Below are positions 7,233 to 38,143 of a DNA stretch of 39,532 bases, piece by piece. Made by a program: the position numbers and the translations under genes. The stretch comes from a virus, in IMG/VR virus record IMGVR_UViG_3300009420_000029, positions 1 through 39,532 of that record; one strand, written 5' to 3'. Each line of letters opens with the position of its first letter. Within the stretch, counting starts at the first letter, position 1. The notes under the pieces were generated by a model. It was given only the letters and a program-made list of their open reading frames with translations. It searched no databases and was not told where the DNA came from.

Positions 7233-7241
7233 AAAACACTA

Positions 7242-7269
7242 GGTTATGGTTATTCGTTTAACCATAACC
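7242..7269 (+). terminator. Perfect 11-bp hairpin without a T tract
   Basis: GGTTATGGTTA (7242-7252) pairs exactly with TAACCATAACC (7259-7269) around a TTCGTT loop, 9 bases after a stop codon and 22 bases before the next start. No run of T follows the stem, so it may be an RNA processing or stability element, a weak terminator, or a palindromic protein-binding site rather than a standard terminator. Confidence 0.5.
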
Positions 7270-7291
7270 AACTAATAAATAAACGATATAA

Positions 7292-9483: not shown

Positions 9484-9488
9484 AAAAA

Positions 9489-9524
9489 TATACTTTTTAT
9501 GAGTTTTATGCAATATATATTATA
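9489..9524 (+). promoter_or_regulatory. Candidate phage promoter (copy 1 of a shared 36-bp motif)
   Basis: The 92-base gap before the 9576 gene contains TATACTTTTT, five variable bases, TTTTATG, one variable base and AATATATATTATA. The same elements occur with identical spacing on the minus strand at 37376-37411 (30 of 36 bases identical). The end of the motif is 51 bases before the start codon. It differs from the usual Bacteroidetes TTTG / TAnnTTTG promoter, so it may be read by the phage sigma factor. Confidence 0.6.
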
Positions 9525-9575
9525 TAAAAATAACATATATTCAGCAATATCTCATTTTAATCACAAATAACTCAA

Positions 9576-12064: not shown

Positions 12065-15000
12065 ATGGCAAGCGAAACACTAAATTTAAACGTTTCCAAT
12101 CTTATAACAGGAGTTAACATCATTGATGGGATGCTTCTGTTTACAGATAACCGTAATGAACCTAGGAAAATAAATATTGCTAGGTTTAGAGACGAGGGTG
12201 TCCACACTTCCGGCACCACACAAATATACGGTAGAGATTTTGAAACTTTAGATATATCTTTAATTAAAAAGCATCCATCTACAGCAGCAACTTTTGCAAT
12301 AGCTTCTACAGACCTTGAAGACTCTGTTTTTAAAAACGTATTTCCAAGGTTTTCTTATAGATGGAAATACAATGATAATGAGTATTCTCCTTTTGCCCCT
12401 TTTACAGAGGTTATATATCAAGGAAAAGCTTTAGATTTAAAAGAAGTTTTTGAGACGGGTGAAATTGCAGCTGTTCAAAACGTTGTAGATTCAGTTACAA
12501 TAACTGTACCCACAACTCAGAAAGATGTTATTGAGATTGATTTGCTATACACAGAATCAATATCTTCAACAGTATATATTGCCGAGACTAAAAAGTTATT
12601 AGCAAGTGACATTACAGCGGGTACTGTTAGTTTTACAGTTAACACAAGAAACTTTTTCAAAGCTGTATCAGGAAGTCAATTAACACGTATATTTGACAAA
12701 GTCCCTAGAAAAGCTAAAGCTCAAGATTTAACTGGTAATAGAGTAATTTACGGCAATTACTTAGAAAACTATGACAATACAACGGTTGATGGTAGTGTAT
12801 CTTATGTAAGTGGAGCTACTGTTGCGTCTAAAATGGGCGTTCGTTCAAATTCAAAATATACAGTTGGAGTTGCTTTTTCAGACCAAGCAGGAAGACTAGG
12901 TGATTTAATAGACTTAGGCGGTGTAGAAACACCATTCTCACCTACGGGTCCTTTAAGTCTAACATGTCAGCTTTCTGGAACTGTGCCCTCATGGGCTACC
13001 AACTATAGATACTATATAAAAGATACTACAGGCCAAAGACATAATATAAAGTCATACGCGGCTTTTGATGAAGAAGTTGGTGGTACAACATCCTCAGAAG
13101 TGTGGATAGCAGTACAATCCGAAGATGTAAATAAAGTACAAGAAGGCGATTTTATATATCATAAAGCTCAACATAGAACAGACTCTTTTGTAGGTATTCC
13201 AGGACAAGCAAATGCTAGTTACGGAGATACAGTACCAACAGCTGGACTAGGAGCAATACAGCCTTACAACAAGCGCAAAGTTATTGAAATAAAAGCCGAA
13301 GCGCCTGATTCAGTTAAATATGGATTGGTAAATAGAAACAGATTAGCAATAAAACAAACTTGGACTACTCATACTTTTCGGTCACTAGATATTACTAACG
13401 GCGATTATGTTACAGGCCATACACCTACTATAAGTGATGACTACATAGCTATTGAGGATGTGGAAGTAGCAACTGCTATAACAGAAGAATTAGAAAATAG
13501 TAAAATTGTATATATAAGCTTAGGCACTAATACCTCTCATAAGACTAGAATCACATCTGTATCAGCAGTAGATATTGGGGGAGTTGCCACTAGCGGTTCG
13601 TTAATACAATTAGCAAATAAACTAAGCGCAGATGCAGTTAGTGGTATAAACTCTACTTCAGTTATAAAAATATATTCAGGAGAATTAAGTAATGAACAAT
13701 TAAGAGTTTTAGATGGTAAGTTTTTTATAAAAACCACTAGATATAACATTGGATTTGTTGCGGGCTCTGGAAGTGTAATTACAACCGACCCAAATACAGC
13801 TGTATCTTTTCCTCATTTAATAGACGACACAGCATTTACAAATGCGGGAACATCAATGGATTTGTTTACAGTAGAAGCAAATGCTGATTCTAACTTAGAT
13901 TTATTCTGGGAAGCTTCAAACGCTTTTGCAGTTTCTGCAACAGACGCTTTAGATTTTGGACAATTAAATGTTATAGATTGGAGCAATTGTATTTCATTTG
14001 CGCGTAACGGAACGAGTAGGCCTATTTTAGATATTGAAATGAGTTATGATAGGTATAATAGTATACCTGTTGGAAAAGGGGTTCGAGTTACAACTCCTAC
14101 AGAAAATGAGGGGGTTGCAAGATATCAGTCAAATCTTATATTTTCTGGTATAATGAATCCTGGTACTTCTTTAAATAAATTAAATCAATTTATTGAAGCC
14201 GATGGTATTACTAAGGATATAAATCCAAAATATGGATCTATACAAAAAATATATTCATCTGATAATTTAACAGTTTTTTGTGAAGATAGAATTGTTAAAG
14301 TATTAGCAAATAAAGACGCACTATATAATGCCGACGAAAGCGCAAACTTAATAGCCACATCAAATGTTTTAGGACAAGTGGTTGCTTATAAAGGGTTATA
14401 TGGTATTGCTAAAAATCCAGAATCTTTTGCAGCCTATGGTAATGATCAATTCTTTTCAGACAGGATACGTGGTGCGGTTTTAAAGCTAACTCCTGCTAAT
14501 GGGCAAATTATTGAAATAAGTAAATCTGGTATGCGTGATTTCTTTAGAGATAGGCTACCATCCGCTACAAATATTTTAGGATCGTTTGATATACATTCTA
14601 ACAAGTACATGCTAACACTTAAAGGCTATAATGCTACTTTAGGGGATATAGATGTAATTAACACTATAGATACAGAACTAGATCAACCTTCAGCAAATAT
14701 GACCCTAGGCTACTATGCTAATGGTCAAACACAAGGTTGGACTAGTAGGTATTCTTTTATACCGGATAGTGGTGTGAGTGTTGATGGTAAGTATTATACT
14801 TTTAAAGACGGTAAAATATGGAGGCATCATGCTTCTGCGGCATCTCATAATAATTTTTATGATATTCAGTACAATTCACAAGTTGAGTTTATATTTAATG
14901 ACAATCCAACACTGAGTAATGAATGGACTGCATTGAATTATGAAGGAACTGAAGGTTGGGAAGTAGTGCATGTTAAAGCGGATCAGGAAAATAATATAAC

Positions 15001-19037: not shown

Positions 19038-22000
19038 ATGAACGAAGAATTACAAGGAATCATAGATAGAATGCGTGCTGCAAATGAACCGGAGGACGTT
19101 ATAAATGCGTTTATAGAAGAATACAATTTAGCTTTCGGTGAGCAACAAAACGTTGTTGAAGAATCTGTTCCTAATGAAGAGCCAGTTAGCGGAGAACCAG
19201 TTGGTCCAAAATCTGCTTCTTTCACTTTCGAAGAAGGTGAATTGGAAGGGTTTGAACAAAGAATGCGCGAAGGCGGGGAGTCTGATGCTTTCATTAACAA
19301 GTTCAAAATGGACTATAGCCTCGTAAACCCAAATGCGGGAAAGTCAACAACCACAGGGATGGACGCGACTGTGGATGCAAACGAAGTGTCCGGTACGGAA
19401 TTTCCATCGGTAGATGGTTCTTTGGTGGAATTAGAAGTACCTAATAACCTAAAACCAATACCTGATAGTGAAAACACCGAGAGCGGGGAACTTGGCTTCT
19501 GGGATAAGATAGATATGCTAGCTGACGGACCAGGTTATAATGTAGCGGGAGGTATAGCAGCTACAAAGATTATGGCAAAAACCGTTAGACAATTTGGTAA
19601 TATGTTTGACGCTGCTAAAATCGAAGTTAAAAGATCTGGTGGTACTGGTGAAACAAATGACTTTATGGATTTAACAGGGAAGTCTTTTAATATAACAGAC
19701 CCTGGTAATATAGCAACAATAGATGCCTGGCAGGCTGAAATAGAAATGCAAGCTAACTTAGGACAAGCTGAAGGCTCTGAAAAGTTTTTTAAACATCAAG
19801 AAAAACTCCAAGAGAATGGTGAAACAGAAGGGAAAGCATTCTTTAAATCCATGATGAAACACCCTGGCTTGTTACCCGAAGTTATTGTAGGATCATTGGC
19901 AGGTATGGGTGCCGCCATGTTCGAAGAACCGTTAAAAGTAATAGGGTCTACTATTGGAGGAGGGTTGGCTAATGCAGGAATAGCAGCTGCTTACGGCGCG
20001 GCGGCTGGTGGAGCCCCGGCAGTTCCCGCGGCAATAGCAGGTTTTGTTAGAGGTGCAGGAATGGGCTTTAGAGCATCCACTATGTACCAAATGGAAAAAA
20101 CAATGACCTTTAATGAAATATTTTTAGAGACTATGGAGGAAAGAAACTTAGATCCTCAGGTTGATGAAGATATATTTAATATTTTATCAGATCCAGAAGC
20201 TATTCAACAAATGAAAAACAAAGCAGCGGCGGGTGGTTTAGCTTTATCTGCTATAGAAACAATGTTTGGTAGAGTGGGAGGTCTAGTTGGTAAAAATGTA
20301 AACAAGGCTGTAAGACAAAGTAGAGTTTTAGGCGCAGTAGGGGAGACTACATTAGAGGGTGCTGGTGGTGTATTAGGTGAATATGGAAAAGGAAAAGCAA
20401 CGGGTCGAGATGCTACTTTTACAGATATGGCACTTGAGGGAGTATCCGTAGCCCCAATGGGAGGCGCTAACGTCGTGAAAAACGTCTTTGGTTCACTTGC
20501 TGAATATAAGATTAATGGAAAAACACTAGAAAGTAAGAAAGATATAGTTGATTTAATTGAAAATGGTACAGATGCCGAAATTTTAGATGCTAACATTGAA
20601 GTTGAAAACGACTCGGATCTAACAAAATTATTAGATAAAAGAGTAAAAACCGCTAAAAAAGCTAACAAAAAAACTTACCTATACAACGGCCAAAAATTTG
20701 ATTCACCTGAAGAAATTAATAATTTCTTAGATACAGCAACAGATGACCAAATTATGGGGGTTGATATTTCTATAATAAATGATAATGAATTAAGTGAAAA
20801 ATATTCAAGTATAATTAATAGAATTATAAAAAGTAAAAAAAGTCAAAAACCTCCAAAGAAAAAACCAAAAAGTAAAGTTAAGCCTAGCTCTGTTCAAACT
20901 AAAGTAGAGCCTCGTATTATAACCGAAGAAAAAATAAAAATAGATACTCAAATAGTTAGACTTGAATTAGACCTTCAAAAGGCTATTGATGAAGGTGGAG
21001 AAACAGCGGGAGTTGCTATAAAGAAAAATATTGAAAACTTAGTTGAAAAGAAAAAAAATATAGAAGACTATATCTCTCTTCAGGTTGATGAGCTCAGCGA
21101 AACGGAAGCTCGTGGATTAGTAGACTTAGATAATGAAGTTGCTTTATACCAATCTATAATAGATGATCCTAGTTCTACACCTGGAGCTATGGCAGCAGCT
21201 AAAAATCAAATAGCTAAAGCTAAAGAAGCACAGGTTGAGGCATTTGAGAATCCAGATTCAAAAGACCTGTCCAGTGTTGAACCTAAAAAACAAAAGAATA
21301 TTGAGCTTTCTAGAAAGACTCAAGAAGCTTATGAGAAAGGTGATACTGATGGCATCATAGAAGCTCAAGGTGGTATGATTTCTTCTATAGCAACATCTTT
21401 ATGGTCTAGAATACCAGCTGACAAGCAGGTAGGTACTTATGACGGCTTTAAAGCAGCATTAATATCAGCTAAAGGTGGCTTATTGGATCTTATTGGAACC
21501 TACAGACCAGAAACGGGAGTACCATTAGCCGCTTGGATTGGCAATGGACAAACTGGATTAAAAGTTAGAGCTAACCGTATAGTAAAAGAATTAACTAAAC
21601 AGGATATAGAAGTTAGTACGGATTCAACGGAAGCATTAAACTCTTTTTCTAGTAATGAAATAGATATTGATAACATCAACCTAGGTCCTAAATATAACTC
21701 ACAAAGATTAGGTTTAGGTGTTAATTTATTAAATGATTCAGCCAAGAGTGTTGAGCTAGGCCAAGTTGCAATTGAACAAGCATTAGCAGATGCGGATGCT
21801 AAAGCAGACGCTAAAGGTAAACCATTATCTCAAAAACAAAGACAAACTGTTTCTGAAAAAGCTTTTGATAAATTATTTAAAGATCAATATGCCCAAAAAG
21901 TTAAAGACAAAATGGGTAAAAAATTGAATTTAAAGAATTACATTAAAAATAATGTATCTACTTTAAAAAGAATTGTTCTTTCTAATACTAATTTTGCAAA

Positions 22001-25000
22001 AGGTAAAGGCTTAACAAAAGATTGGAATAAATACCCACCTTCAGATCAAGAATTTCAAAATTTTTATGAAGGAACTGATACTGATAATTCCCAAACTATT
22101 AGTGATAGAAAAGCAGCGTTAGCGGAAGCTGTGTCAAAGCAAATAGCTAAAGATGCTAAAGATAATTATTTTGAAGGTAAAGAAGCTGATCGTAATAAGT
22201 TTAGCATTGAGAATGACATCTCTTTTTCAACAGATAAAAAAATAGTAGAAGATGTTTCAGAATTTATACAAGGTATAAAAAATATAGCTCGTGCTGAAGT
22301 AGAAAACGCTGAGGCTTTAAATGATTATGAAGACGTAGCTAATTTTAATAAATTTATTGAAAAATTTAAAGGCTTTATAAAGCATGATAATACTAACAAG
22401 CTAGACAGAAATAACCCGGACGACGTTAAAAAAATACAGGAAGAATTATTAAAAGCGGCAGAAGATGGTAAAATACACCCATTACTGCTTATTATATCTA
22501 AATTTGGAAATTTTGGGAGAGCTGAAGTTAAAGGTTATGTAGAAAATGGGGTTTTTATTAAAAAACCTTCAAAAGTGTCAATAGATGACACTAAAAACTA
22601 TGAAACTTATTACGAACTATCAGGGCCTGTAGAGGGTTCTGTTGGCAATTACCTTAAAAGACCTGAATCTACACAAGAAGCAAAAATTATAGCTGAGAAA
22701 TTTAAAGATTCATTTTTACCTGGAAGAGGCGGTATTTTTTACGGTGTTAAAGATCCTAAATACGTTAATTTATTAAAAATAGCCACGGAAAATTATAACG
22801 GTATAGATATACCTGGGTTTAAAATAACAGATAAAGAAGGCTCAAAAAGACTTAGCTTTGGCACTAAATCAAATAATATTTTCAAAAAAAATGGTATTGA
22901 AATAGATCCAAAAGCATTTGAAGAGGTTACTGAAAAATTTAAAGAAACGGCAAAAAACAACCAGTTACTAGTTAAAGAACTTACTAAAGCTGTAAGTGCT
23001 CTAATTAAAGGTGGTGGGAATCCTTATACATTTGGATCTCTTTTACATAATTCTTACAGAGCAACCTCTGGGGCTATTAAAGCTTCTTTTGAATTTAAAG
23101 TCTACGAAGGAGGGGTTTTAGAATATGGTACTGGTACTAAATTTGGTAAATTTAATGCTAAAGGTGGAGTGCAAAATATTTTCAGAGAAGAACATAGTCC
23201 TCCTGTTAAAGTATTTGGTAGTGAACTTCTTAAAGCAGCATTAACCATAGACTCACCGTCGGGTATAGATGCACGAGTAAACGACATGTACAAGGACGCT
23301 TTTCAAAGCATAATATCCTTAAAGTCTGACCAGGCTATTAATGATACAGGCTACGGAGCTGCAATAGCAAAAGGTGGCAGAGTCGGTGAAAATTCTGGTA
23401 TTATTAGATTAGCGGAAGCTGGAGTTAGTTTAAAAAAATTATTTTATTCAAACGGTAAAAATGTACACAACTTTTTTGCAGAACAAATGGATATATCAAT
23501 GCAGGTTGAAAATGATAACGTTGCGTCCAACGAGAAGATAATCGATCATTTAAGTAACAAAGTCGAACGAGACTTACAGGGAGCTTTGCAAGTTGAAGAA
23601 AGTAATAACTCAAATCCAGAATTAAATGTTTCTGAAAAAATAGAAGCCTTTATAGACGTAATAAAAAGCGCATATAAAGGGTCTTTTGAAATTGTTAATA
23701 CTAAAGAAGACGCGGTTGCCTACTTAGTATCAAAAGGTATGGATCCTAAAAAAGCCCAGGAAACCGTTGACCGTGCAAAAGGATTTTACATTTCACGGAC
23801 TGATGGGCTTATGTATGTAAATCCAGAATTGGGTGGACTTGACACGCTGTTGCATGAAACAACCCATGCATGGACTAGAATGATTTCAGAAGTTGATCCT
23901 GAATTGTTTGATGCTATATATGAAAAATTAAAAGGCCATCCTTTATACGCTGAGGCAGTTGCAAGAATGGGCAATGATGATTATAAAAACATTGAACCTG
24001 GTTCTTTTAAGTATAAAGATGAAATTTTAGCCTACATATTAGGTGAAGAAGGTGGATCTATGTACGACCTATTTCCTGGTGATATAAAAGCAAAAAACTT
24101 AATTGATAAATTTTTCCAATATGTAGCAGAAGCTTTAGGCTTTGACCCTTCAACAAAAGATTTTGCGAGCCTATCTATTGAGCAAGTTGTTAAACTAGCT
24201 ATAAAAGATATTTCGGAAGGAAACCCAGCTTCAAACTTTAATAAACTCAAAAACAAAGCAGAAGGCAAAAGTTGGTTTGCAAAATCGGAAGATCAAATTA
24301 GTCCAAGTTCTAAAGCTGCAAAAAGTAGTACAGTGAGAGCTTTTAACGCTTTAAAATTAGCTTATAGAGAAAGTGGTGATTTGGTTGATGCTATAATTAA
24401 AAGTTATGATTCTGTAAAAAATGAAATGACTTTACAGGAGTGGGCTAAGATTGTTGCTAAAAACACTAAAGAACCTGTACCTGGTAAATCTAACGATTTA
24501 TTAATAGGTAAAAGTAAAATTAAAAAAGCCGAAAAGATTTCAGAGGCAAGTGTAGACAAAAACAAAGAAAGCGAGTTAAGTGAAAGTGAAGGTAAAAAAA
24601 TGGCTGATAAATTAAGAGCTATTATATATGGTAAAACAGGTAAACCCTCAAAATGGTTTATCCCACCTAATGCTGAAGATTTTAAAGGTTTGCTATACAC
24701 ATTCCTACCAGGAGGCAAAGCTGGAGTCGCAGCTAAAAAGTGGTTAACAGATACTTTATTAAAGCCTTATTCAAATGCTATTGCTGCACTTGATAGTGAA
24801 GTTTTAAACAAATCAAACGCTTGGAAAACGCTTTCTAAAGGTTTTGATTTTAATATAAAAATTGCAGGCACACCTTATACTTTAGGTGATGCAATTAAAA
24901 TATATAATGGTTTAAAAAACGGTCAAGATCCTAATATAGCTAAAAAGAAACACTTAGATGCTCTTATACACGCTGTAGAAAGCGATAGTAAGATTTTAAA

Positions 25001-26831
25001 TTTTGCTAATGAGGTTAACAAATCGTTTCCTATCGATATTACTAGCGGATGGCAAAACAGAAGCTTTGCAAAAGAAATATTCGATTCTATTAATGATGGA
25101 TCTAGAAAAAGACACTTAGCTTCTTTTAGCGCTAATGTTGATGCAATGTTTACAGACGCTACATTAGATCTTATAGCAGATAAATATGGTGTTAAATATA
25201 AGCAAGCTTTAGTTGGTACGCTGGCTAGAATGAAGTCAGGAAGGAACAGAGTGGGGACAGATGCTAGTGCTAATTCTTATATGAATTGGATTAACCGCGC
25301 CGTTGGAACTACTATGTTTTTAAATACACGTTCTGCGTTTCTACAAACTTTATCATCATTAAACTTTATAAACAAGCCAGGTAATAACTTATTCCAAGCA
25401 ATGAGAGCTTTTGCTAATCAAGCACAATGGAAGGCAGATTATAAAGTTTTATGGAATAGTGATTATTTAGCTAATAGAAGAGATGGTGCTAAATTTGATG
25501 TATTAGCTGACGAAATGGCTCAAGGTGATGTTAAAGGTATTGAAAAGCTTCTTAAGGCTGGATTTTTGCCAACAAGATATGCAGATAGTTTTGCTATTGC
25601 TATGGGAGGGGCAGCTTTTTATAGAAACAGAGTTAACATGCTTATTAAAGATGGAATGAGTAAAGCTGACGCTGAAGCTCAAGCAATGGTAGATTGGAGA
25701 GAAGCTGCTGAAGAATCTCAGCAATCTGCTGATCCTTCTAAAATATCTGAAATACAATCATCATCTATAGGTAAATTGATATATGCTTTTGCAAATACAC
25801 CATTTCAATATGCTAGATTAACCAAAAGAAAATTGCAAGATTTAACTTCTGGTAGATCAGCTGCTGAAGGTAACGTTCAAAAAGACATTCAATCTTTATT
25901 GTATTACTCTATATTACAATCCGTAATGTTTAATGCTTTACAAAATGGACTAGTAGCTTTAACAATGTCAGATGATCCTAAGGATGATGAATTGAAAGAC
26001 GAAAAGTATACACAAATATTAGAGCGTACTTTAACATCTTACGCAAAATCTATTGGGAATCCTGGTGCTGTGGCAGCAACCTTATACGCTATGTTAAAAG
26101 AAGGGTATATGCAACAGACAGGTGAGCGTAGGAAAGACGCTAATGTTTTTGCATTAACTGCTACTTCGATTTCACCACCATTGAACTCTAAGCTCAAAGA
26201 TTTATCTGCAGCTTACAGAGCATATAATAAAATTGATGAAAAAGATTTACTAACCCCATCTTTAGATAGTGATGCTTTAACAATGGCAGGAGAAGTATCT
26301 TCTTTTGTTGGAGTTCCTTTAGATAGAGTCGTTAAAAAAACAAGACATTTAGCGGCTATAACTAACGAAGAAGTTGAACTATGGCAAAAAGTATGGATGC
26401 TAGCTGGTTGGAGTGAATGGGAATTAGGTGTTGGAAGAGATTCTAAAAAGAAAAATAAACCCAAGAAGTCTAAAAAAAGAAAAGGATTAAAAAGCAATAG
26501 ATTGACTTCCCCTAATCGTAGGTTAGAAGACGGGGTTGATGGAGTTGCAAACAAAGATGGCACTATAGAACTAGCACCAGGCTTAGATCCTGTAGAAAAG
26601 GAAATCACCATAGCTCACGAGCAACAGCACGTACAAGACATGGATGCTGGTATATTAGACTATGACAATGATTTTGTATATTGGAAGAATAAAAAATACC
26701 GTAGAAAAAACGGTAAAATAATCTATAACGGCAGATCTGTTATAGAGGGAAGCAAAAGTTTACCTTGGGAGAAAAAAGCATATGATGCTGAACCTTCCAA
26801 GAGTGCGGTAAAACGAAAGTTATACGAATAA
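19038..26831 (+). CDS. Giant polyvalent internal virion protein with two zincin motifs and a sigma-like segment
   Basis: At 2597 residues this is the largest product and the last of the virion operon, the place of ejected core proteins such as T7 gp16. Visible parts: two short helical repeats (about 5-33 and 69-96); a Gly/Ala hydrophobic region that may enter membranes (about 278-350); two tandem ~50-residue repeats (about 489-594); a segment resembling sigma-70 region 2 (about 780-860); a zincin motif HETTH at 1606-1610; a conserved helical region (TMFLNTRSAFLQTLSSLNFI) like those of large polyvalent phage proteins; and a second zincin motif HEQQH at 2527-2531 followed by LPWEKKAY, where the Glu could be a third ligand. 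A likely role is delivery into the host with the genome and action on host or capsid proteins. No transglycosylase motif was seen. Confidence 0.7.
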   Translation: MNEELQGIIDRMRAANEPEDVINAFIEEYNLAFGEQQNVVEESVPNEEPVSGEPVGPKSASFTFEEGELEGFEQRMREGGESDAFINKFKMDYSLVNPNAGKSTTTGMDATVDANEVSGTEFPSVDGSLVELEVPNNLKPIPDSENTESGELGFWDKIDMLADGPGYNVAGGIAATKIMAKTVRQFGNMFDAAKIEVKRSGGTGETNDFMDLTGKSFNITDPGNIATIDAWQAEIEMQANLGQAEGSEKFFKHQEKLQENGETEGKAFFKSMMKHPGLLPEVIVGSLAGMGAAMFEEPLKVIGSTIGGGLANAGIAAAYGAAAGGAPAVPAAIAGFVRGAGMGFRASTMYQMEKTMTFNEIFLETMEERNLDPQVDEDIFNILSDPEAIQQMKNKAAAGGLALSAIETMFGRVGGLVGKNVNKAVRQSRVLGAVGETTLEGAGGVLGEYGKGKATGRDATFTDMALEGVSVAPMGGANVVKNVFGSLAEYKINGKTLESKKDIVDLIENGTDAEILDANIEVENDSDLTKLLDKRVKTAKKANKKTYLYNGQKFDSPEEINNFLDTATDDQIMGVDISIINDNELSEKYSSIINRIIKSKKSQKPPKKKPKSKVKPSSVQTKVEPRIITEEKIKIDTQIVRLELDLQKAIDEGGETAGVAIKKNIENLVEKKKNIEDYISLQVDELSETEARGLVDLDNEVALYQSIIDDPSSTPGAMAAAKNQIAKAKEAQVEAFENPDSKDLSSVEPKKQKNIELSRKTQEAYEKGDTDGIIEAQGGMISSIATSLWSRIPADKQVGTYDGFKAALISAKGGLLDLIGTYRPETGVPLAAWIGNGQTGLKVRANRIVKELTKQDIEVSTDSTEALNSFSSNEIDIDNINLGPKYNSQRLGLGVNLLNDSAKSVELGQVAIEQALADADAKADAKGKPLSQKQRQTVSEKAFDKLFKDQYAQKVKDKMGKKLNLKNYIKNNVSTLKRIVLSNTNFAKGKGLTKDWNKYPPSDQEFQNFYEGTDTDNSQTISDRKAALAEAVSKQIAKDAKDNYFEGKEADRNKFSIENDISFSTDKKIVEDVSEFIQGIKNIARAEVENAEALNDYEDVANFNKFIEKFKGFIKHDNTNKLDRNNPDDVKKIQEELLKAAEDGKIHPLLLIISKFGNFGRAEVKGYVENGVFIKKPSKVSIDDTKNYETYYELSGPVEGSVGNYLKRPESTQEAKIIAEKFKDSFLPGRGGIFYGVKDPKYVNLLKIATENYNGIDIPGFKITDKEGSKRLSFGTKSNNIFKKNGIEIDPKAFEEVTEKFKETAKNNQLLVKELTKAVSALIKGGGNPYTFGSLLHNSYRATSGAIKASFEFKVYEGGVLEYGTGTKFGKFNAKGGVQNIFREEHSPPVKVFGSELLKAALTIDSPSGIDARVNDMYKDAFQSIISLKSDQAINDTGYGAAIAKGGRVGENSGIIRLAEAGVSLKKLFYSNGKNVHNFFAEQMDISMQVENDNVASNEKIIDHLSNKVERDLQGALQVEESNNSNPELNVSEKIEAFIDVIKSAYKGSFEIVNTKEDAVAYLVSKGMDPKKAQETVDRAKGFYISRTDGLMYVNPELGGLDTLLHETTHAWTRMISEVDPELFDAIYEKLKGHPLYAEAVARMGNDDYKNIEPGSFKYKDEILAYILGEEGGSMYDLFPGDIKAKNLIDKFFQYVAEALGFDPSTKDFASLSIEQVVKLAIKDISEGNPASNFNKLKNKAEGKSWFAKSEDQISPSSKAAKSSTVRAFNALKLAYRESGDLVDAIIKSYDSVKNEMTLQEWAKIVAKNTKEPVPGKSNDLLIGKSKIKKAEKISEASVDKNKESELSESEGKKMADKLRAIIYGKTGKPSKWFIPPNAEDFKGLLYTFLPGGKAGVAAKKWLTDTLLKPYSNAIAALDSEVLNKSNAWKTLSKGFDFNIKIAGTPYTLGDAIKIYNGLKNGQDPNIAKKKHLDALIHAVESDSKILNFANEVNKSFPIDITSGWQNRSFAKEIFDSINDGSRKRHLASFSANVDAMFTDATLDLIADKYGVKYKQALVGTLARMKSGRNRVGTDASANSYMNWINRAVGTTMFLNTRSAFLQTLSSLNFINKPGNNLFQAMRAFANQAQWKADYKVLWNSDYLANRRDGAKFDVLADEMAQGDVKGIEKLLKAGFLPTRYADSFAIAMGGAAFYRNRVNMLIKDGMSKADAEAQAMVDWREAAEESQQSADPSKISEIQSSSIGKLIYAFANTPFQYARLTKRKLQDLTSGRSAAEGNVQKDIQSLLYYSILQSVMFNALQNGLVALTMSDDPKDDELKDEKYTQILERTLTSYAKSIGNPGAVAATLYAMLKEGYMQQTGERRKDANVFALTATSISPPLNSKLKDLSAAYRAYNKIDEKDLLTPSLDSDALTMAGEVSSFVGVPLDRVVKKTRHLAAITNEEVELWQKVWMLAGWSEWELGVGRDSKKKNKPKKSKKRKGLKSNRLTSPNRRLEDGVDGVANKDGTIELAPGLDPVEKEITIAHEQQHVQDMDAGILDYDNDFVYWKNKKYRRKNGKIIYNGRSVIEGSKSLPWEKKAYDAEPSKSAVKRKLYE

Positions 26832-28850: not shown

Positions 28851-29116
28851 TATGTATTTGTTATTAAATAAATTATATATCCTACTATTACATTTACATT
28901 TATAGCAACTAAATTCCATTGCTTAGCAACGATCACTTGTGGTGTGCAAAGTATGCCTCCAATTATGTAGCTTATAGCCCCTATATTACCGTAATTCAAT
29001 ATATAAGGCCCTATCATTATGAAAGCTGTTCCCATATATCCTAAGCGACCGGACAATCGTTCGTTAACCGTTAGTCTTCTGTCTTTAACTAAGTCTTTAA
29101 GTTTAAAGTTCTTCAT
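28850..29116 (-). CDS. Small multispanning membrane protein between the RNR genes
   Basis: An 88-residue protein with a basic N-terminus (MKNFKLKDLVKDRRLTVNER) and about three hydrophobic segments (roughly 27-45, 46-62 and 67-86). A Pro-Gln pair followed by KQWNLV in the second half recalls PQ-loop or semiSWEET-like small transporters, but the match is too short to name it. The start chosen is the ATG that overlaps the nrdB stop as TGATG; an ATG 9 bases earlier is possible. Its stop overlaps the nrdA start as TAATG, so it is translated in line with both reductase subunits. A role in nucleotide or precursor uptake is conceivable but unproven. Confidence 0.65.
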   Translation of the reverse strand: MKNFKLKDLVKDRRLTVNERLSGRLGYMGTAFIMIGPYILNYGNIGAISYIIGGILCTPQVIVAKQWNLVAINVNVIVGYIIYLITNT

Positions 29117-30087
29117 CAATCCCACATATCTTCAAAATCTTCGCCTTCACCTGCTTTCGAGTAATCAGTAGGACGAACAGCAAAAAAATCAGTATGAGTG
29201 ACTCCACCCGTGAGGTGATAAAACCAGTCGAGGTTGTCTGATCCTGATTTGTCATATGCAAAGTACTGCCCGAGGTCGAAGTAACCGAGTTCTGTAAGTT
29301 TTTCATTTAATCTTTTTCTAATAAATTGTTTTAAATCATAAGCTTTAATTCCCTCTATATCACCCATCTCAAACATCTTATCAATATATGTTTCCTCAGC
29401 TACCAACATAGTTGTTGCTGCTGTTACAACGTCTTCTCTACATTCAGATAAAAGTGTTTCATCTTCTGCACACATGTGTCTAAATAATTTACAACCCATT
29501 TTACTATGCAGTGACTCATCTCTTACAGACCATTTCATCTGTTGGCCAATGCCTTTAAGCAGGTTACGAAGCTGAAAACTATATAACACAGCAAAAGCGG
29601 AATAGAGAGATACGCCTTCTGCAAATGCAGAAAAAATAGCGATAGACTTGCCAATCCCACGAGGATTAGTACCAGTGTAACTAACAAGGTTATCGAAGCG
29701 CTGCGCCGTGGCGGGCTCGTGTAAGAATGCTTCATAATCTTCTAAGCCTAATGTTTCATTTAGATAGCTGTAAGCAACAGCGTGTATTGTTTCTTGAGAA
29801 CCAAACATCATTGCCATTTGCTGTATTTCATGCTTAGGAAACCAGCCTACAACTTTCTGTGTCCAATAATCAGATACAGCACATTCTGTTTGAGCGAAAC
29901 CTAAAAGTATATTACCTACTAGATTTTTTTCTTCTTTAGTTAATTTTTCATTCCAGTCTTTAAGATCGCCAGACATTGGTATTTCAGTATGTAACCAAAA
30001 AGCTTGTGCCTGTTTTAGCCAACCCTCCGTGTAGTACTCTGGATACTCAAAGGGTTTGTAGGCTATTCTTTCATCAAATAATCCCAT
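29116..30087 (-). CDS. nrdB: Ribonucleotide reductase class I, small (radical) subunit
   Basis: The 323-residue protein houses the dimetal cofactor that starts the radical reaction in NrdA. Likely metal ligands are Glu68, Glu99, His102, Glu157, Glu191 and His194 (in QTEC, GSQETIH, AEGVS and RDESLH). A Tyr at 106 matches the radical Tyr of NrdB/NrdF. The first ligand is Glu where most class Ia and Ib proteins have Asp. The C-terminus is acidic and ends DFEDMWD, suitable for docking to the large subunit. The start ATG overlaps the preceding stop as TAATG. Glu at the first site may hint at an unusual metal or radical subclass, as in some Bacteroidetes and chlamydial enzymes; this is inference. 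Confidence 0.93.
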   Translation of the reverse strand: MGLFDERIAYKPFEYPEYYTEGWLKQAQAFWLHTEIPMSGDLKDWNEKLTKEEKNLVGNILLGFAQTECAVSDYWTQKVVGWFPKHEIQQMAMMFGSQETIHAVAYSYLNETLGLEDYEAFLHEPATAQRFDNLVSYTGTNPRGIGKSIAIFSAFAEGVSLYSAFAVLYSFQLRNLLKGIGQQMKWSVRDESLHSKMGCKLFRHMCAEDETLLSECREDVVTAATTMLVAEETYIDKMFEMGDIEGIKAYDLKQFIRKRLNEKLTELGYFDLGQYFAYDKSGSDNLDWFYHLTGGVTHTDFFAVRPTDYSKAGEGEDFEDMWD

Positions 30088-30659: not shown

Positions 30660-30867
30660 GTTGTCTTCCAATTCTTTCAATTTCTTCTGAGTTAATTTTG
30701 TTATTATGCTTGGTATACTTCCTAACATCTTTATCTAATTTACGGCGTTTGTAGTGTAAAGAGGATTCTTTTTTCTTTTTTCTTTCATTATCTGAATCAT
30801 CATATCTACGTCCTTTTGATTTTGCGGCTTGTAAAGCGTTCGCGAGTCTTCCATGTTTATCATCCAT
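30640..30867 (-). CDS. Basic protein of 75 residues overlapping the nuclease gene
   Basis: The product is strongly basic (RKKKKESSLHYKRRKLDK in the middle) with a C-terminus IERIGRQHGFYTW that is unlikely to arise by chance translation. Its first 44 codons lie within the 3' end of the endonuclease gene in another frame (133 bases). It could be a true overlapping gene, or the real start may be a later non-ATG codon. Basic composition suggests nucleic-acid binding, but no domain is recognised. Confidence 0.42.
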   Translation of the reverse strand: MDDKHGRLANALQAAKSKGRRYDDSDNERKKKKESSLHYKRRKLDKDVRKYTKHNNKINSEEIERIGRQHGFYTW

Positions 30868-31211
30868 TGCTTAAATAGTTTCCATCTTAAAGGGAAGGAT
30901 TCATTTGCTCTCCCCTTGCATTCTATTATGTAATCTTTTCCTGTGAAGTCAGGTGTATACTTAATTCCCAATATTTTTTTCTCCCCTCGGTTAGTAAAAT
31001 CACCTTTCCCGTTGGCTTGTTTTTCATAAGCTTTATTTGTAAAACTAAATCCTTCGACCAACTGGAAAACTTCACCTTCATAATATTCAAATAGTTTTTC
31101 TTTTTTAAGAGCTATATATGTATACTTTTCTAATCCAGATGCAAAATTAATCCCATCAAAGGTTGTTTTCTTAGCTACAACTGGACCTCTTTTTTTGCTT
31201 CTTCGCTTCAT
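30735..31211 (-). CDS. PD-(D/E)XK nuclease, T7 endonuclease I-like resolvase
   Basis: The 158-residue protein has the order of catalytic motifs typical of small phage PD-(D/E)XK enzymes: a Glu in FASGLEKYTY (about 24-33), YTPDF (about 85-89) and IIECKGR (about 95-101), followed by WKLFKQWM. Such enzymes cut branched DNA and Holliday junctions before packaging, and can degrade host DNA. A DUF1064-type nuclease is an equivalent description. The basic N-terminus (MKRRSKKRG) fits DNA binding. It starts two bases after the stop of the MazG-like gene. Its last third overlaps a basic reading frame described separately. Confidence 0.78.
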   Translation of the reverse strand: MKRRSKKRGPVVAKKTTFDGINFASGLEKYTYIALKKEKLFEYYEGEVFQLVEGFSFTNKAYEKQANGKGDFTNRGEKKILGIKYTPDFTGKDYIIECKGRANESFPLRWKLFKQWMINMEDSRTLYKPQNQKDVDMMIQIMKEKRKKNPLYTTNAVN

Positions 31212-31213
31212 AA

Positions 31214-31558
31214 TTACATTTTATCATAAGTTACTTTAATATCACCTGGATAGATAGAAGTGGTTGTTGTACCAAATCCATCAGGTGGCCCAGGATCACT
31301 AACGTTACTGAATGTAGATTCTTCTTCAAGATAGTCTTTAAGTATCTTGTCAGCTAATACATCAGTAGTTTCATGCTTAAGCTTTTCAATATAATTACAA
31401 GCATCTAACAATTCCTCTTGTATATGATTAAGCCATTTGTGTAATGAAGGAGTATCATCGTGTAAAGTTACACCATATTTTTTATAACCTACATTGCTAC
31501 GCTCATCAAGTTTTTTGATTACTTGTTGTACTATTTGGTCTTGAGTAGTTATTTTCAT
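31214..31558 (-). CDS. MazG-like all-alpha nucleotide pyrophosphohydrolase family protein
   Basis: The 114-residue protein contains RSNVGYKKYGVTLHDDTPSL followed by HKWLNHIQEELLDACNYIEKL. This pattern belongs to a short phage family related to MazG or dUTPase-type all-alpha NTP pyrophosphatases; the EExxD cluster would bind Mg. The C-terminal ~35 residues are Gly/Pro/Thr-rich and probably flexible. Its start overlaps the stop of the GIY-YIG/MazG gene as TAATG, so two pyrophosphatase-type proteins are made from adjacent coupled genes. Likely substrates are non-canonical or host nucleotides. The family fit is moderate, the exact substrate unknown. Confidence 0.6.
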   Translation of the reverse strand: MKITTQDQIVQQVIKKLDERSNVGYKKYGVTLHDDTPSLHKWLNHIQEELLDACNYIEKLKHETTDVLADKILKDYLEEESTFSNVSDPGPPDGFGTTTTSIYPGDIKVTYDKM

Positions 31559-32355
31559 TAATTGTTTTTTACAAATGTTCCATTAATCATTTTACCTTTT
31601 CTGTTGATTATAACGTCGTACGCGGACTCAATACAATCTTCTATATGTAAACCTTCTACAGCTGCTAGGTTGGTTAAAACAACTACCATATCGCCTATAG
31701 CATCAATAATTTCAGGTCTATCGTTTTTAAGCAATGCTTGAGCTAATTCGCCAGCTTCTTCTTGAAGTTTAATATACTGAGTCTTGCTATCTCCTTTATC
31801 ATATATACCACGATCAGTAGCCCATTCTCTAATTAGTGGAAATATAAACTGTCCACCTGTTTTAGTCATTTCCTTTGTTTCTTGGAAAGGCATAGCTTGT
31901 GATAGTACTTTATTATAGACATAGCAGGTACCAGGACCAAACTGGCTACTATGTACATTAGATATAATCCACTCAATTTTAGCCTCATTGTCCAAGGCAT
32001 ACGTTCCGTACCCATTTTTTATTTTTATATTGTTTAAAAACCTTGCGTTGATTTCATCTTTGGAAATCTTAAACGTTGTTGTTGCTTCAGATGATGTGCA
32101 CTTTGTCATTTTGTTTGATTTTTTAAATAAATCTTTATATAATTGTCTATCAACTTTATAACCAAGATCTTCTTGTAGTGTCTTCTCTGCTTGTGAAGCT
32201 TCTACAATATCATTAGTCTCAAACAGTATTTCGTACTCACCTTCTTTATATCCCTGTGTTTCAATAACGCGCTTCTGTATATTAGTAGTGCATCCTATTT
32301 TAACACCTGGTATATGGTAAATTTTATACTTACCTGTTGGTATTTTTATATTCAT
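31558..32355 (-). CDS. Fusion of GIY-YIG (T5orf172-like) domain and MazG pyrophosphohydrolase
   Basis: The 265-residue chain has two recognisable ends. Residues about 7-75 read YKIYHIPGVKIGCTTNIQKR, then a Glu-containing helix (IVEASQAEKTLQ). This resembles the T5orf172/MUG113 branch of GIY-YIG nucleases, with KIG in place of YIG and the catalytic-type Arg and Glu kept. Residues about 185-265 are MazG-like: LQEEAGELAQALL then PEIIDAIGDMVVVL, matching EExxE and ExxD. The middle (about 85-180) is unassigned. MazG enzymes hydrolyse NTPs and can lower ppGpp in phage infection; GIY-YIG domains cut DNA. The fusion is unusual and lies beside thymidylate synthase and another MazG-like gene. Confidence 0.75.
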   Translation of the reverse strand: MNIKIPTGKYKIYHIPGVKIGCTTNIQKRVIETQGYKEGEYEILFETNDIVEASQAEKTLQEDLGYKVDRQLYKDLFKKSNKMTKCTSSEATTTFKISKDEINARFLNNIKIKNGYGTYALDNEAKIEWIISNVHSSQFGPGTCYVYNKVLSQAMPFQETKEMTKTGGQFIFPLIREWATDRGIYDKGDSKTQYIKLQEEAGELAQALLKNDRPEIIDAIGDMVVVLTNLAAVEGLHIEDCIESAYDVIINRKGKMINGTFVKNN

Positions 32356-32432: not shown

Positions 32433-33260
32433 TCATACTCCGACGTTGAGTTCTGCTTTGATTGCTGGGTGCGGGTCATATCCTGAAATATTTATCATTG
32501 ATTTTTTTGGTATACTTACATCTTTTTTGTCGATAATATTAAGTCCCCAATCGACGCTAACAAAAGGAAGTCTTCGAAAACTACGATCCAACTGTTGTTT
32601 AGCTTGATCGATATGATTATTGTAAAGATGACAGTCACCAAGGGAAACAAGTAATTCGCCCGGGGTATATCCAGCTCCCTTTGCAAGCATAAGTAATAAT
32701 AACCCATACATAGCAAAATCATAAGGCAGGCCGAGAAAAACATCAGCTGATCGCTGCTGCCACATAAGATCCATTTTTCCATCGTTTATATAAATTTGAA
32801 ATCCGTAATGACAAGGAGGTAAGGCCATCTCGTGTATAGCACCTGCATTCCATGCATTAACCATTAGCCTTCTAGATGAAGGATTAGATTTTATCTCACG
32901 GATTAGTTGCTTTAATTGATCAACACCGTTAAAGTTGCGCCATTGAGATCCATATACTGGACCTAATGTGCCGTCTGTTCTACCAGATCTTTCATAATCA
33001 GCATTCCAATACTTAACACCGTTATCGTTTAAGTATTTAATATCTGTTTTACCGTGCAATATCCATAATAATTCAGTTACAGCGTTGTCCCAGAATATTT
33101 TTTTTGTGGTGAGCAAAGGAAATCCTGCTGACATATCATGTCGTAGTATTCGTCCAAAGACTGATTTTGTCCCAATACCTGTTCGATCCTCTTTCTGTTT
33201 TCCACCGTAGACCAGTGATGATAATAATCCCCTATACTCATCCTGAATGTTTCTTGTCAT
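32433..33260 (-). CDS. thyA: Thymidylate synthase
   Basis: A full-length 275-residue ThyA that converts dUMP to dTMP with methylenetetrahydrofolate. The nucleophile Cys150 is in ALPPCHYGFQ, the phosphate-binding Arg pair in SSRRLMVNAWN, and the folate/dUMP-binding RSADVFLGLPYDFAMYG follows. The N-terminal DRTGIGTKSVFG and C-terminal YDPHPAIKAELNVGV are also typical. It begins inside the last 23 bases of the preceding unknown gene. Together with the reductase genes it feeds the dNTP pool of an AT-rich genome. No sign of an intron or truncation. Confidence 0.96.
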   Translation of the reverse strand: MTRNIQDEYRGLLSSLVYGGKQKEDRTGIGTKSVFGRILRHDMSAGFPLLTTKKIFWDNAVTELLWILHGKTDIKYLNDNGVKYWNADYERSGRTDGTLGPVYGSQWRNFNGVDQLKQLIREIKSNPSSRRLMVNAWNAGAIHEMALPPCHYGFQIYINDGKMDLMWQQRSADVFLGLPYDFAMYGLLLLMLAKGAGYTPGELLVSLGDCHLYNNHIDQAKQQLDRSFRRLPFVSVDWGLNIIDKKDVSIPKKSMINISGYDPHPAIKAELNVGV

Positions 33261-33525
33261 AATAATATTTCATTGTTTTAAATGTTTCTTGCCAAATATT
33301 ATCTGTTATATATACAGTTGGCGTTTTATAAACTTTTCTAAAGTTAGGCATAAACGATACTGCTATTCTCCATTCCTGTGGATACATACCTTTAGAGGTT
33401 GGTTCTGGAGATATTATTATATCATTATCTATACAAAACTTTTGCCACTTTAATTCGTCAGCGTTAGCTACAAATCCAGTGTTTAATCCTATATAACCTT
33501 TAGGTGGCTTTGACTTCCAGGCCAT
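33238..33525 (-). CDS. Hypothetical protein of 95 residues
   Basis: The chosen start (MAWKSKPPKGYIGLNTGFV) overlaps the primase-helicase stop as TAATG, the pattern used throughout the operon; an upstream ATG would add three residues. The product is a soluble alpha/beta protein with two likely central strands (EWRIAVSF, TPTVYITDN) and a C-terminal helix (WQETFKTMKYYYDKK). It is not recognised. Position between helicase-primase and thymidylate synthase suggests a DNA-metabolism accessory role only by association. Confidence 0.6.
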   Translation of the reverse strand: MAWKSKPPKGYIGLNTGFVANADELKWQKFCIDNDIIISPEPTSKGMYPQEWRIAVSFMPNFRKVYKTPTVYITDNIWQETFKTMKYYYDKKHSG

Positions 33526-35228
33526 TATTCCCAAGGTAGATTATGATCCGACGGATCTGTTACTGGCATATAGTCGCCCGATACATGGTTCCATTTAAAG
33601 TGCGCCTCGGCTTGATTCTCTCCTAAGTTTTGAAACTTAACTTTAAGAACTTTAACTTTCACAGTATTGTTACCATAATTTCTATGTACTAGTAATCCAT
33701 GATAACTAGCATCATACCATTCTCCACCACCTTTAATAGAATACATTGTTGGTTCGTCCATAGTCCCATCATCTTTCTTGTACATTTTAGTAGGGTGTGC
33801 AACAACAATAACTAGCACGTCATATTTTTTAGCGAATGTTTCTATTTGTGCCAAATATTCCATAGTAGCATCAGGTATAGACATTGCTGCTGTACCTTTT
33901 AATTTAACTTTATTAAATGGGTCTATAACTAAACATTTAATTCCTTTACGCTTAACTAATTCAGCACCTTTTTTAAGCACTGCTTCAAGATCATAGCGCT
34001 CAGACTCTATAAAGTAAAAGTTATCATTTACTACATTCCAGCAATCTTTCCATTTATCACTACCTAAGTCTTCTTGCTTAGGCATCCAGCCGCCAATTTT
34101 TCTTATTAGCTTATGGGTATGTAAAAATGTTGGTTTGTTTTCCGGTGAAGCAAAAGCTGTTTTCCAACCATATTTCATTTGGTATCCAACTGCCATTCTA
34201 TCAACAAAGTCAGACTTACCACTACTAGGCACTCCTGTGACAGTAATAAACTGTCCGGTGTAAGTACTAAATATGCTGTCAAAGTTATCAAGACCGACTT
34301 GAAAACCCGGCTTAAAGCCTTCGTGTATGAATTCTTCCAGTTCATCATTTATGTCATTTACGGTTACTACATTTTCAAGAGGTACGGCTTTTGCATTATG
34401 TATAGCATCCAAAAGAGCGTTACGCCCGTCAGCCATAAGAACACCATTAGCATCCTTATGAATATTGAAATCTGCCATCCAGCATACTTCCGCCCCAAAC
34501 CTACGTATAAGTTCTTGTTGTAGGTTTTGACCAGCTTCATCACTGTCTGTAGCGAGTATGATTTTTGATTTATCTTCAAAATATTCGATACAGTTATCAA
34601 GGTAATCAAGGTTGAGCCTATTAAGAGTAGCTCCGTTTGGTACTGATACAACGTTTTTAATTCCAACTTCATAAAGAGATAAGGCATCCATCTCTCCTTC
34701 AACAATAACACACCAGTCGTGACCAATGATATTATTGATATTATAAAATACTTTTTCTGCGCCTTTAACAAGTTTGAAATTCTTTCTGCCATCTCTATAT
34801 TTAGTATTAATTAATTGTTCATTAATAAAATAATTAAATTGTATGGTATTAACTTCTTTAGAAACTTGAGGCATCCACTCAGAACCCTCACTGACTTTCA
34901 TATCAGCAAGGGTCTTTTGTGAAATACCACGTTCTTCAAACCATTTAACAGCGCCGGTACTTAAGCTAGTATTATTTTTCCACTCGGGTAAAACATACTC
35001 TTTATCAGCACCACCTTTACGTTTAAACGTGTGTAGCTGAAAGACTTCATCACAATTCATACAGGTGCCGAGACCACGTTCCCAATCATACATAGCGCAT
35101 TTAGCTTTGCGATTTTCAGGTTTTCTATCAACTGAACACTTAGGACATATGCCCTCTTTCTTTCCAGCTTCAAGATCGTGTTGATTGAACGTGTCAATCA
35201 CAAATCCATTGATCTCATCTGTTATCAT
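33525..35228 (-). CDS. Bifunctional primase-helicase (T7 gp4/Twinkle type)
   Basis: The 567-residue protein should prime and unwind DNA at the replication fork. The zinc-binding domain has Cys pairs at 28/31 and about 56/59. The TOPRIM primase domain shows VIVEGEMDALSLYEVG (about 173-188) and ILATDSDEAGQN (about 221-232). The RecA-like helicase domain shows Walker A TGVPSSGKSD (about 331-340) and Walker B IKCLVIDPFNK, with KVKVLKVKFQNLGE near the C-terminus. Both activities appear intact. A phage with this type of enzyme usually pairs it with a family A DNA polymerase, which was not found in the window and may lie past the right edge. Confidence 0.92.
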   Translation of the reverse strand: MITDEINGFVIDTFNQHDLEAGKKEGICPKCSVDRKPENRKAKCAMYDWERGLGTCMNCDEVFQLHTFKRKGGADKEYVLPEWKNNTSLSTGAVKWFEERGISQKTLADMKVSEGSEWMPQVSKEVNTIQFNYFINEQLINTKYRDGRKNFKLVKGAEKVFYNINNIIGHDWCVIVEGEMDALSLYEVGIKNVVSVPNGATLNRLNLDYLDNCIEYFEDKSKIILATDSDEAGQNLQQELIRRFGAEVCWMADFNIHKDANGVLMADGRNALLDAIHNAKAVPLENVVTVNDINDELEEFIHEGFKPGFQVGLDNFDSIFSTYTGQFITVTGVPSSGKSDFVDRMAVGYQMKYGWKTAFASPENKPTFLHTHKLIRKIGGWMPKQEDLGSDKWKDCWNVVNDNFYFIESERYDLEAVLKKGAELVKRKGIKCLVIDPFNKVKLKGTAAMSIPDATMEYLAQIETFAKKYDVLVIVVAHPTKMYKKDDGTMDEPTMYSIKGGGEWYDASYHGLLVHRNYGNNTVKVKVLKVKFQNLGENQAEAHFKWNHVSGDYMPVTDPSDHNLPWE

Positions 35229-37411: not shown

Positions 37412-38143
37412 CTAATTCTCCAAGTATTTTTCAATTATTTCTTTAACATGTGGTTGTGCCATTTTTTTCAAAGCTATTGCTTTAATTTTTTTAACCCATA
37501 TATCAGATCTATGAAAGCGTTCAGCTATTTTACTAACAGATGCACGTTTATCATAAGGCTCATCTATACCAAAATAAGCACATAAAACTTGCTTCTCTTG
37601 GTTCTTTAATTCATTGTCCATAACTTGATGCAAGAAATCGTTTAGTAGTTCTTGATCGTAGCTATAAGGTTCATCGGCAACGTCTAAATAATACTGATTA
37701 AAAAATGATGAAAATGTTTGTGTTAAAAAAATATCTGTTTGATAGTTATTATCGTATTTACCGCCGTGTGCGTCCCCGTGTGGGCTTGTAGTGTAATAAG
37801 CCTCAGGAATCCTAATAGTGTCTCTATCACGAGCTATGGCTCTTCTAATTCCGTTCTTGATGTTCAATTTTAAATAGTTTGTAATTATACCGGGTTTTTC
37901 TTCTTCTGTTCTAGAATTTATAAGTTCCCAATCTAACTTATTCCATGCTTTATAAAAAGACACATAACCTTCCTGAATTAAATCAGTAAGGTCAAGTACC
38001 CCTATCCTCGGATAAGATCTTTCAAATATGTTTGCTAATGACTTAGGCCACTCTATATAAGGTGCCTTTATCGCATCAATTCTTTCATATATATTAAGAC
38101 TTCTCAAATGCTGTTTGTATGTTGAATGGCTGTACCACTTCAT
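37412..38143 (-). CDS. Phage-encoded sigma-70-family RNA polymerase sigma factor
   Basis: The 243-residue protein has a region 2-like core at about 48-110 (VLDLTDLIQEGYVSFYKAWN, then YLKLNIKNGIRRAIARDRDT, the helix that contacts polymerase and the -10 element). A region 4 helix-turn-helix follows at about 180-235 (KNQEKQVLCAYFGIDEPYDK, then ASVSKIAERFHRSDIWVKKI). The linker between them is Tyr/Asp-rich and lacks a clear region 3. It should direct host RNA polymerase to phage promoters. The nearby 36-bp motif and its copy before the tail genes are candidate targets. It starts at an ATGA overlap with the gene before it. Confidence 0.85.
   Translation of the reverse strand: MKWYSHSTYKQHLRSLNIYERIDAIKAPYIEWPKSLANIFERSYPRIGVLDLTDLIQEGYVSFYKAWNKLDWELINSRTEEEKPGIITNYLKLNIKNGIRRAIARDRDTIRIPEAYYTTSPHGDAHGGKYDNNYQTDIFLTQTFSSFFNQYYLDVADEPYSYDQELLNDFLHQVMDNELKNQEKQVLCAYFGIDEPYDKRASVSKIAERFHRSDIWVKKIKAIALKKMAQPHVKEIIEKYLEN

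Follow-up and report, generated by a model that had tools for sequence, protein, structure and literature searches.

One of the closest described counterparts to the locus discussed here is found in phage T4. In T4, a dCTPase depletes dCTP, hydroxymethyl-dCMP is made, and cytosine-containing host DNA is cut, with endonuclease II acting first (PMC6071114). Endonuclease II (EndoII) is a GIY-YIG enzyme, to go by the title of Lagerback et al. 2009 as cited in PMC11404850. The T4 set of EndoII (denA), gp56, and gp42 thus brings together a GIY-YIG nuclease, a dNTP pyrophosphatase, and an Asp-type thymidylate-synthase homologue. A second point of reference is MazZ of cyanophage S-2L (acting with PurZ and DatZ), which is specific for (d)GTP, feeds a base-replacement enzyme, and carries two C-terminal strands; N-terminal fusions have been reported for MazZ-1 (PMC8342488). 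Third, ICP1 Gp88 (Odn) is an origin-directed nuclease whose T5orf172 domain has atypical motifs, keeps the Arg and Glu, and is fused to a RepA-like DNA-binding domain, the target being a satellite (PMC8263062). Finally, MetaGPA contigs with modified cytosine share Asp177 homologues of thymidylate synthase and co-occurring PRA-PH (PF01503) genes, and such co-occurrences with thymidylate synthase are often specific to modified contigs; the main text of that paper mentions neither MazG nor GIY-YIG, nor does it single out a fusion of the two (PMC8670742).

Earlier work had already described both domains, the signature residue Asp177, and MazG-like proteins with N-terminal fusions. For a fusion of MazG with a GIY-YIG/T5orf172 domain, on the other hand, we found no description in the open-licence literature as far as it was accessible, and an earlier one may exist elsewhere; a 2006 survey of GIY-YIG proteins makes no mention of MazG or T5orf172 (PMC1564403). 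Such a fusion is encoded in the viral record IMGVR_UViG_3300009420_000029, of which the 39,532 nucleotides analysed are called the window below. Together with the gene directly upstream it may be likened, by role, to the T4 set. The T4 activities reside in separate proteins, whereas here two of them would share one chain, and no T4-type dNMP kinase was found: among kinases that would phosphorylate the product, DNMK was present in 0 of 16 contigs and thymidylate kinase in 0 of 46. With S-2L MazZ, the locus shares the MazG fold, the two C-terminal strands, and probably a base-replacement enzyme encoded next door; MazZ serves 2-aminoadenine, whereas here the neighbour is of the cytosine type and a GIY-YIG domain is fused on. 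In contrast to Gp88, the partner domain is MazG and the gene belongs to a core phage operon. Standalone phage MazG proteins (Cellulophaga phage phi10:1 gp030, phage Phi NF-1) have the same MazG domain without GIY-YIG. The fusion probably, and in our view with good confidence, has a role in a cytosine-modification pathway.

A three-domain chain

The original prediction, made from the sequence alone, described a single chain that joins a T5orf172-like GIY-YIG domain to a MazG pyrophosphohydrolase. This was borne out. The open reading frame occupies exactly the predicted position and is encoded by the minus strand, the opposite strand being riddled with stops; both parts score above their Pfam cut-offs, and the motifs that had been named (KIY, KIGCTTN, an Arg and a Glu, EExxE, and ExxD) are present, with key residues invariant in an alignment of 81 sequences. 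The domain pair is well supported. The chain and its parts are as follows.

31558..32355, minus strand: fusion gene, 265 aa, GIY-YIG (T5orf172) plus middle domain plus MazG/PRA-PH
32122..32355, minus strand: GIY-YIG domain, residues 1-78, from the T5orf172 profile, invariant motif residues, and predicted fold
31882..32103, minus strand: middle domain, residues 85-158, with conserved columns and a confident model
31561..31860, minus strand: MazG/PRA-PH pyrophosphohydrolase domain, residues 166-265, from Pfam, PHROGs, and fold

At residues 18-68, the first domain scores 22.7 bits against Pfam T5orf172 (PF10544), for which the cut-off is 20; the same family is hit at E <= 0.1 by 18 of 30 relatives. 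The motifs of the domain are Y10-K-I-Y13, K19-I-G21-C-T23-T-N, R29, and E57. The Tyr of the YIG motif is replaced by Lys19 (KIG), and the core is short, with six residues from Y13 to K19. In the predicted model of residues 1-158, the N-terminus is arranged as strand-strand-helix-strand-helix. Foldseek alone gave no significant match for this model; re-alignment of the Foldseek candidates placed I-TevI on top for residues 8-72 (Z 5.3, 64 residues, rmsd 3.1), followed by three UvrC GIY-YIG structures (Z about 4) and, lower, Slx1 and an UPF0213 protein. The proposed check of the N-terminal fold thus came out in favour of a likeness to the I-TevI and UvrC domains. The Z values of the modelled fold are modest, and we assign the GIY-YIG fold because the sequence profile, the motifs, and the fold agree.

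For the third domain, Pfam places two families on residues 183-253, MazG (PF03819) with 28.2 bits (cut-off 22) and PRA-PH (PF01503) with 30.1 bits (cut-off 21.3). The MazG motifs are E199-E200-A-G-E203 (EExxE, 199-203), E215-I-I-D218 (ExxD, 215-218), and D222; E215 is kept in 79 of the 81 sequences and is Asp in the other two. The best fold matches of this part are 1vmg (Z 10.2) and S-2L MazZ (7ody, Z 10.1), and the model ends in a C-terminal strand pair (254-257 and 260-263). Between the two enzymatic parts lies a domain with the conserved motifs TTTF, N133, S137, and YNK, in which T92, T94, F95, N133, S137, Y147, and N148 are invariant columns. No PHROG or PDB family and no significant Foldseek match was found for it, and a PHROG search with residues 1-158 returned scattered weak matches only.

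A search of the viral collection returned 287 relatives, and the best 80 of these span from residue 10 or before to residue 261 or beyond at 46-99% identity. The suggested search for the domain pair across phage genomes therefore yielded the full-length fusion in at least 80 other viral contigs, which excludes a sequencing error. Across the alignment of 81 sequences, Y10, Y13, G17, K19, G21, T23, R29, E57, E199, E200, E203, D218, and D222 are invariant. In nucleotide comparisons among close relatives, dN/dS is about 0.01-0.06 for MazG and 0.05-0.17 for the two domains before it; with such low values in all domains, the whole chain is maintained by purifying selection. A viral-structure library contains a full-length relative, A0A516MJS7, which is 60% identical across 257 columns. 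For the full chain, AlphaFold2 gives a mean pLDDT of 85 and a pTM of 0.45, so the individual domains are confidently predicted, but their mutual arrangement is not.

The possibility that the two parts are really separate genes, joined here by a frame error, is ruled out by the full-length relatives and by the lineage survey described below. No intact relative has the parts split; at one locus (L190), the reading frames of the fusion and of the gene next to it are both broken. In another contig (G067), the two matched pieces lie within one open frame, which makes this an insertion rather than a split.

Searched with four different queries, 50,697 cultured-phage records contained no match to residues 1-158; the full-length query matches 1,512 such records, via the MazG part. 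Among contigs of metagenome-assembled genomes that carry the fusion, the labels read Saprospiraceae, Flavobacteriaceae, or Bacteroidetes, apart from one each of Aliivibrio, Halieaceae, and Verrucomicrobiales, and the closest cultured primase/helicase is that of Cellulophaga phage phi10:1 (43%). The host is likely a member of the Bacteroidota.

The thymidylate-synthase-family neighbour

Directly upstream of the fusion lies a gene that automatic annotation names thymidylate synthase.

32433..33260, minus strand: thymidylate-synthase-family gene, predicted dCMP (hydroxy)methylase, 275 aa, Cys150 and Asp181
32718..32720, minus strand: codon of Asp181, the predicted cytosine-specificity residue (alignment 'glpydf' vs 'gvpfni')

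It matches PF00303 with 296 bits and has the PPCH motif with the catalytic Cys. Asp181 stands where solved thymidylate synthases have Asn (the Asn177 position). This position, Asn177 in Escherichia coli and Asp179 in T4, decides between dUMP and dCMP (PMC8670742, PMC6400193), and earlier wet-lab work found that Asp177 marks contigs with modified cytosine (PMC8670742). Asp occupies it in every readable neighbour of the fusion, 83 of 83 (the window being counted twice). As an unbiased check, a query leaving out the Asn177 site was used, which fetched 35 enzymes beside the fusion and 26 loci without it. Asp was found in 35 of 35 with the fusion, and the 26 without it comprised 21 Asn, 3 Asp, and 2 unreadable sites, counts that are not independent events since many of the contigs are related. 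Taken together, the sequence strongly indicates a cytosine-specific dCMP (hydroxy)methylase, and the link of the fusion to cytosine is well supported. For the enzyme of the window, the sequence is compatible with either a methylated or a hydroxymethylated product.

The Asp enzymes linked to the fusion fall into three divergent clades. The tree favours separate clades, with ordinary Asn enzymes between them, but the data are also compatible with a single origin of the Asp enzymes (AU p = 0.18). For one clade, the best solved relatives are CMP 5-hydroxymethylase (MilA) and T4 dCMP hydroxymethylase (gp42), and in a cultured relative of this clade, Enterococcus phage VFW, the gene adjoins a beta-glucosyltransferase gene. 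In Bacteroides phage BF503P2 and Enterococcus phage VFW, profile searches around the dCMP hydroxymethylase gene yielded no relative of MazG or of GIY-YIG. The three Asp-type homologues without the fusion (L143, L144, and L145) may belong to cytosine-modifying phages of another layout.

A replication and nucleotide operon

In about 80 contigs, the usual order of the operon is a sigma-like gene, an Erf annealing protein, an exonuclease, a small gene, a primase/helicase, another small gene, the thymidylate-synthase-family gene, the fusion, a small gene that we call p2, a DUF1064 gene, and a ribonucleotide reductase. In the window, the operon is opened by a sigma-70-like protein (37412-38143) that has divergent homologues in many relatives. 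Its other members discussed here are the following.

33525..35228, minus strand: primase/helicase, with Toprim and DnaB-like matches; same operon
31214..31558, minus strand: p2, small conserved gene directly downstream of the fusion (RSxxGxxKYGxTL...QEELxDA)
30735..31211, minus strand: DUF1064 gene, possibly Holliday-junction resolvase-like (PF06356 29.5 bits, phrog_190)
29116..30087, minus strand: ribonucleotide reductase small chain (PF00268, 189.6 bits); same operon

The original prediction took p2 for a second MazG-like gene, and this reading found no support. p2 has no Pfam family, its hhalign probability against the MazG domain of the fusion is 1.4%, and its PDB profile matches look like chance helical ones. 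It does match several PHROGs, all without assigned function.

In 84 of 84 loci, the fusion comes next after the thymidylate-synthase-family gene and is read from the same strand; at most of them, the two genes overlap or lie no more than 20 nt apart. To sample the lineage blind to the fusion, the primase/helicase was used as the query, which gave 80 loci. Both genes are present in 75 of these, the exceptions being three contig-end cuts, the frame-broken L190, and L221; among the long contigs of the lineage, 45 of 46 have the fusion. L221 (G073) is the sole intact contig without it, and there the MazG part is missing too. The whole contig of 62 kb encodes neither a thymidylate synthase of the upstream-gene family nor the fusion, and in the variant region (6828-11594) a ThyX is inserted between the two ribonucleotide reductase genes. 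As judged from gene content, the Asp-type enzyme and the fusion appear to travel together, their joint loss being a single case. ThyX can be set aside as a general partner, since it occurs in only 2 of 49 contigs. A dCMP deaminase (PF00383) was found in 0 of 46 contigs. One of the contigs of the set (G012, the contig of L071) has a ThyX split over two frames (13435-14041) alongside the Asp-type enzyme and the fusion.

The same operon invites a different explanation, in which the GIY-YIG domain is a structure-specific nuclease of recombination or replication that works with Erf, the exonuclease, and DUF1064, while MazG does house-cleaning and the cytosine link reflects operon membership only. 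The presence of Erf, exonuclease, primase/helicase, and DUF1064 genes in the operon speaks for it, as does the recombination role proposed for T5orf172 proteins (PMC7824862). However, L221 retains the exonuclease, p2, DUF1064, and the reductase and has lost the Asp-type enzyme along with the fusion. Moreover, these two genes are directly adjacent, and the pair also occurs in other phage backbones without this primase/helicase (L031, L048). We regard this explanation as rather unlikely, although it is the strongest of the alternatives.

Possible activities of the fusion

Returning to cytosine replacement, we see roughly even chances that the fusion serves that pathway with two activities, dCTP hydrolysis and the cutting of unmodified DNA. 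The MazG domain would convert dCTP to dCMP and pyrophosphate, keeping ordinary cytosine out of new phage DNA, and the dCMP would feed the neighbouring dCMP (hydroxy)methylase. The GIY-YIG domain would cut DNA that still has unmodified cytosine, most likely that of the host, and the nucleotides would be recycled. In this way, the fusion and its neighbour would supply three activities of T4 from two genes. The original prediction had already proposed a coupling of DNA cutting to the nucleotide pool, and this part fits the base-modification neighbourhood. It had also named modified host DNA as a possible target, and here the direction is probably reversed: the modification would lie on the phage DNA, with unmodified host DNA and dCTP probably being the targets.

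The confidence differs among the parts of this mechanism. We lean towards dCTP as the substrate of the MazG domain, an assignment drawn from the neighbour only. It is held at moderate strength because MazZ uses (d)GTP, because no product kinase was found, and because the plain MazG gene of phage Phi NF-1 adjoins an ordinary Asn-type thymidylate synthase. This last case indicates that dCTP cannot be read off simply from a MazG gene next to a thymidylate synthase. We infer that the GIY-YIG domain cuts DNA; that it is aimed at unmodified host DNA is plausible, and we put it forward with some reserve. Still more tentatively, the fusion could act as a single-chain enforcer, in which the same enzyme destroys dCTP and cuts plain-cytosine DNA and the middle domain possibly senses DNA or a nucleotide.

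With its short core and a Lys in place of the second Tyr, the GIY-YIG domain may not cut at all. It could instead bind DNA or a partner and tether a MazG dCTPase close to the modifying enzyme or to the replication fork, and the modest fold match agrees with this as well. On the other hand, Gp88 of ICP1 also has an atypical motif and yet keeps the catalytic Arg and Glu (PMC8263062). Y10, Y13, R29, and E57 are all invariant, and a merely structural domain need not keep them, which makes a non-cutting role quite improbable. MazG proteins are generally associated with stress nucleotides, and the original prediction accordingly offered an action on ppGpp or another alarm nucleotide that alters host physiology; beyond this general association nothing points there, and for a gene that belongs to the core of an operon of replication and dNTP genes and is tied to a cytosine-type enzyme, we consider it highly improbable. 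Least probable of all is that a remnant of a homing endonuclease has been inserted into a MazG gene: GIY-YIG domains are mobile and common in homing enzymes (PMC1564403), and T5orf172 domains resemble putative homing enzymes of phage ICP1 (PMC8263062), but in place of sporadic occurrence and empty sites we find the same operon position through nearly the whole lineage (see the counts of loci and of long contigs above) and purifying selection, and no MazG-only form was found in the lineage.

Should cytosine replacement by this enzyme pair prove true, a large marine phage group, probably living on Bacteroidota, replaces cytosine with a compact T4-like toolkit, and this would affect how these phages escape host defences. 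The fusion would then also serve as a genome marker of modified-cytosine phages in metagenomes. It further allows a direct test of whether a nuclease and a dNTP hydrolase that share one chain are coupled in their activity.

Around the pair there are thin hints of base tailoring. T4 beta-glucosyltransferase matches below the cut-off occur in 2 of 49 contigs (L031 and L033), a few genes upstream of the pair, and a carbamoyltransferase occurs in 1 of 46 contigs (G054). The carbamoyltransferase family is paired with Asp-type thymidylate-synthase homologues in cytosine-modified contigs (PMC8670742). In L031 (974-3728) and L033, the region upstream of the pair may form a base-modification island: the beta-glucosyltransferase-like gene (below the cut-off), a PLP-dependent enzyme, and a 300-aa protein lie there, and the Asp-type enzyme and the fusion come after them. 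Elsewhere in the window, an ORF of 2597 aa (19038-26831) closes the structural module.
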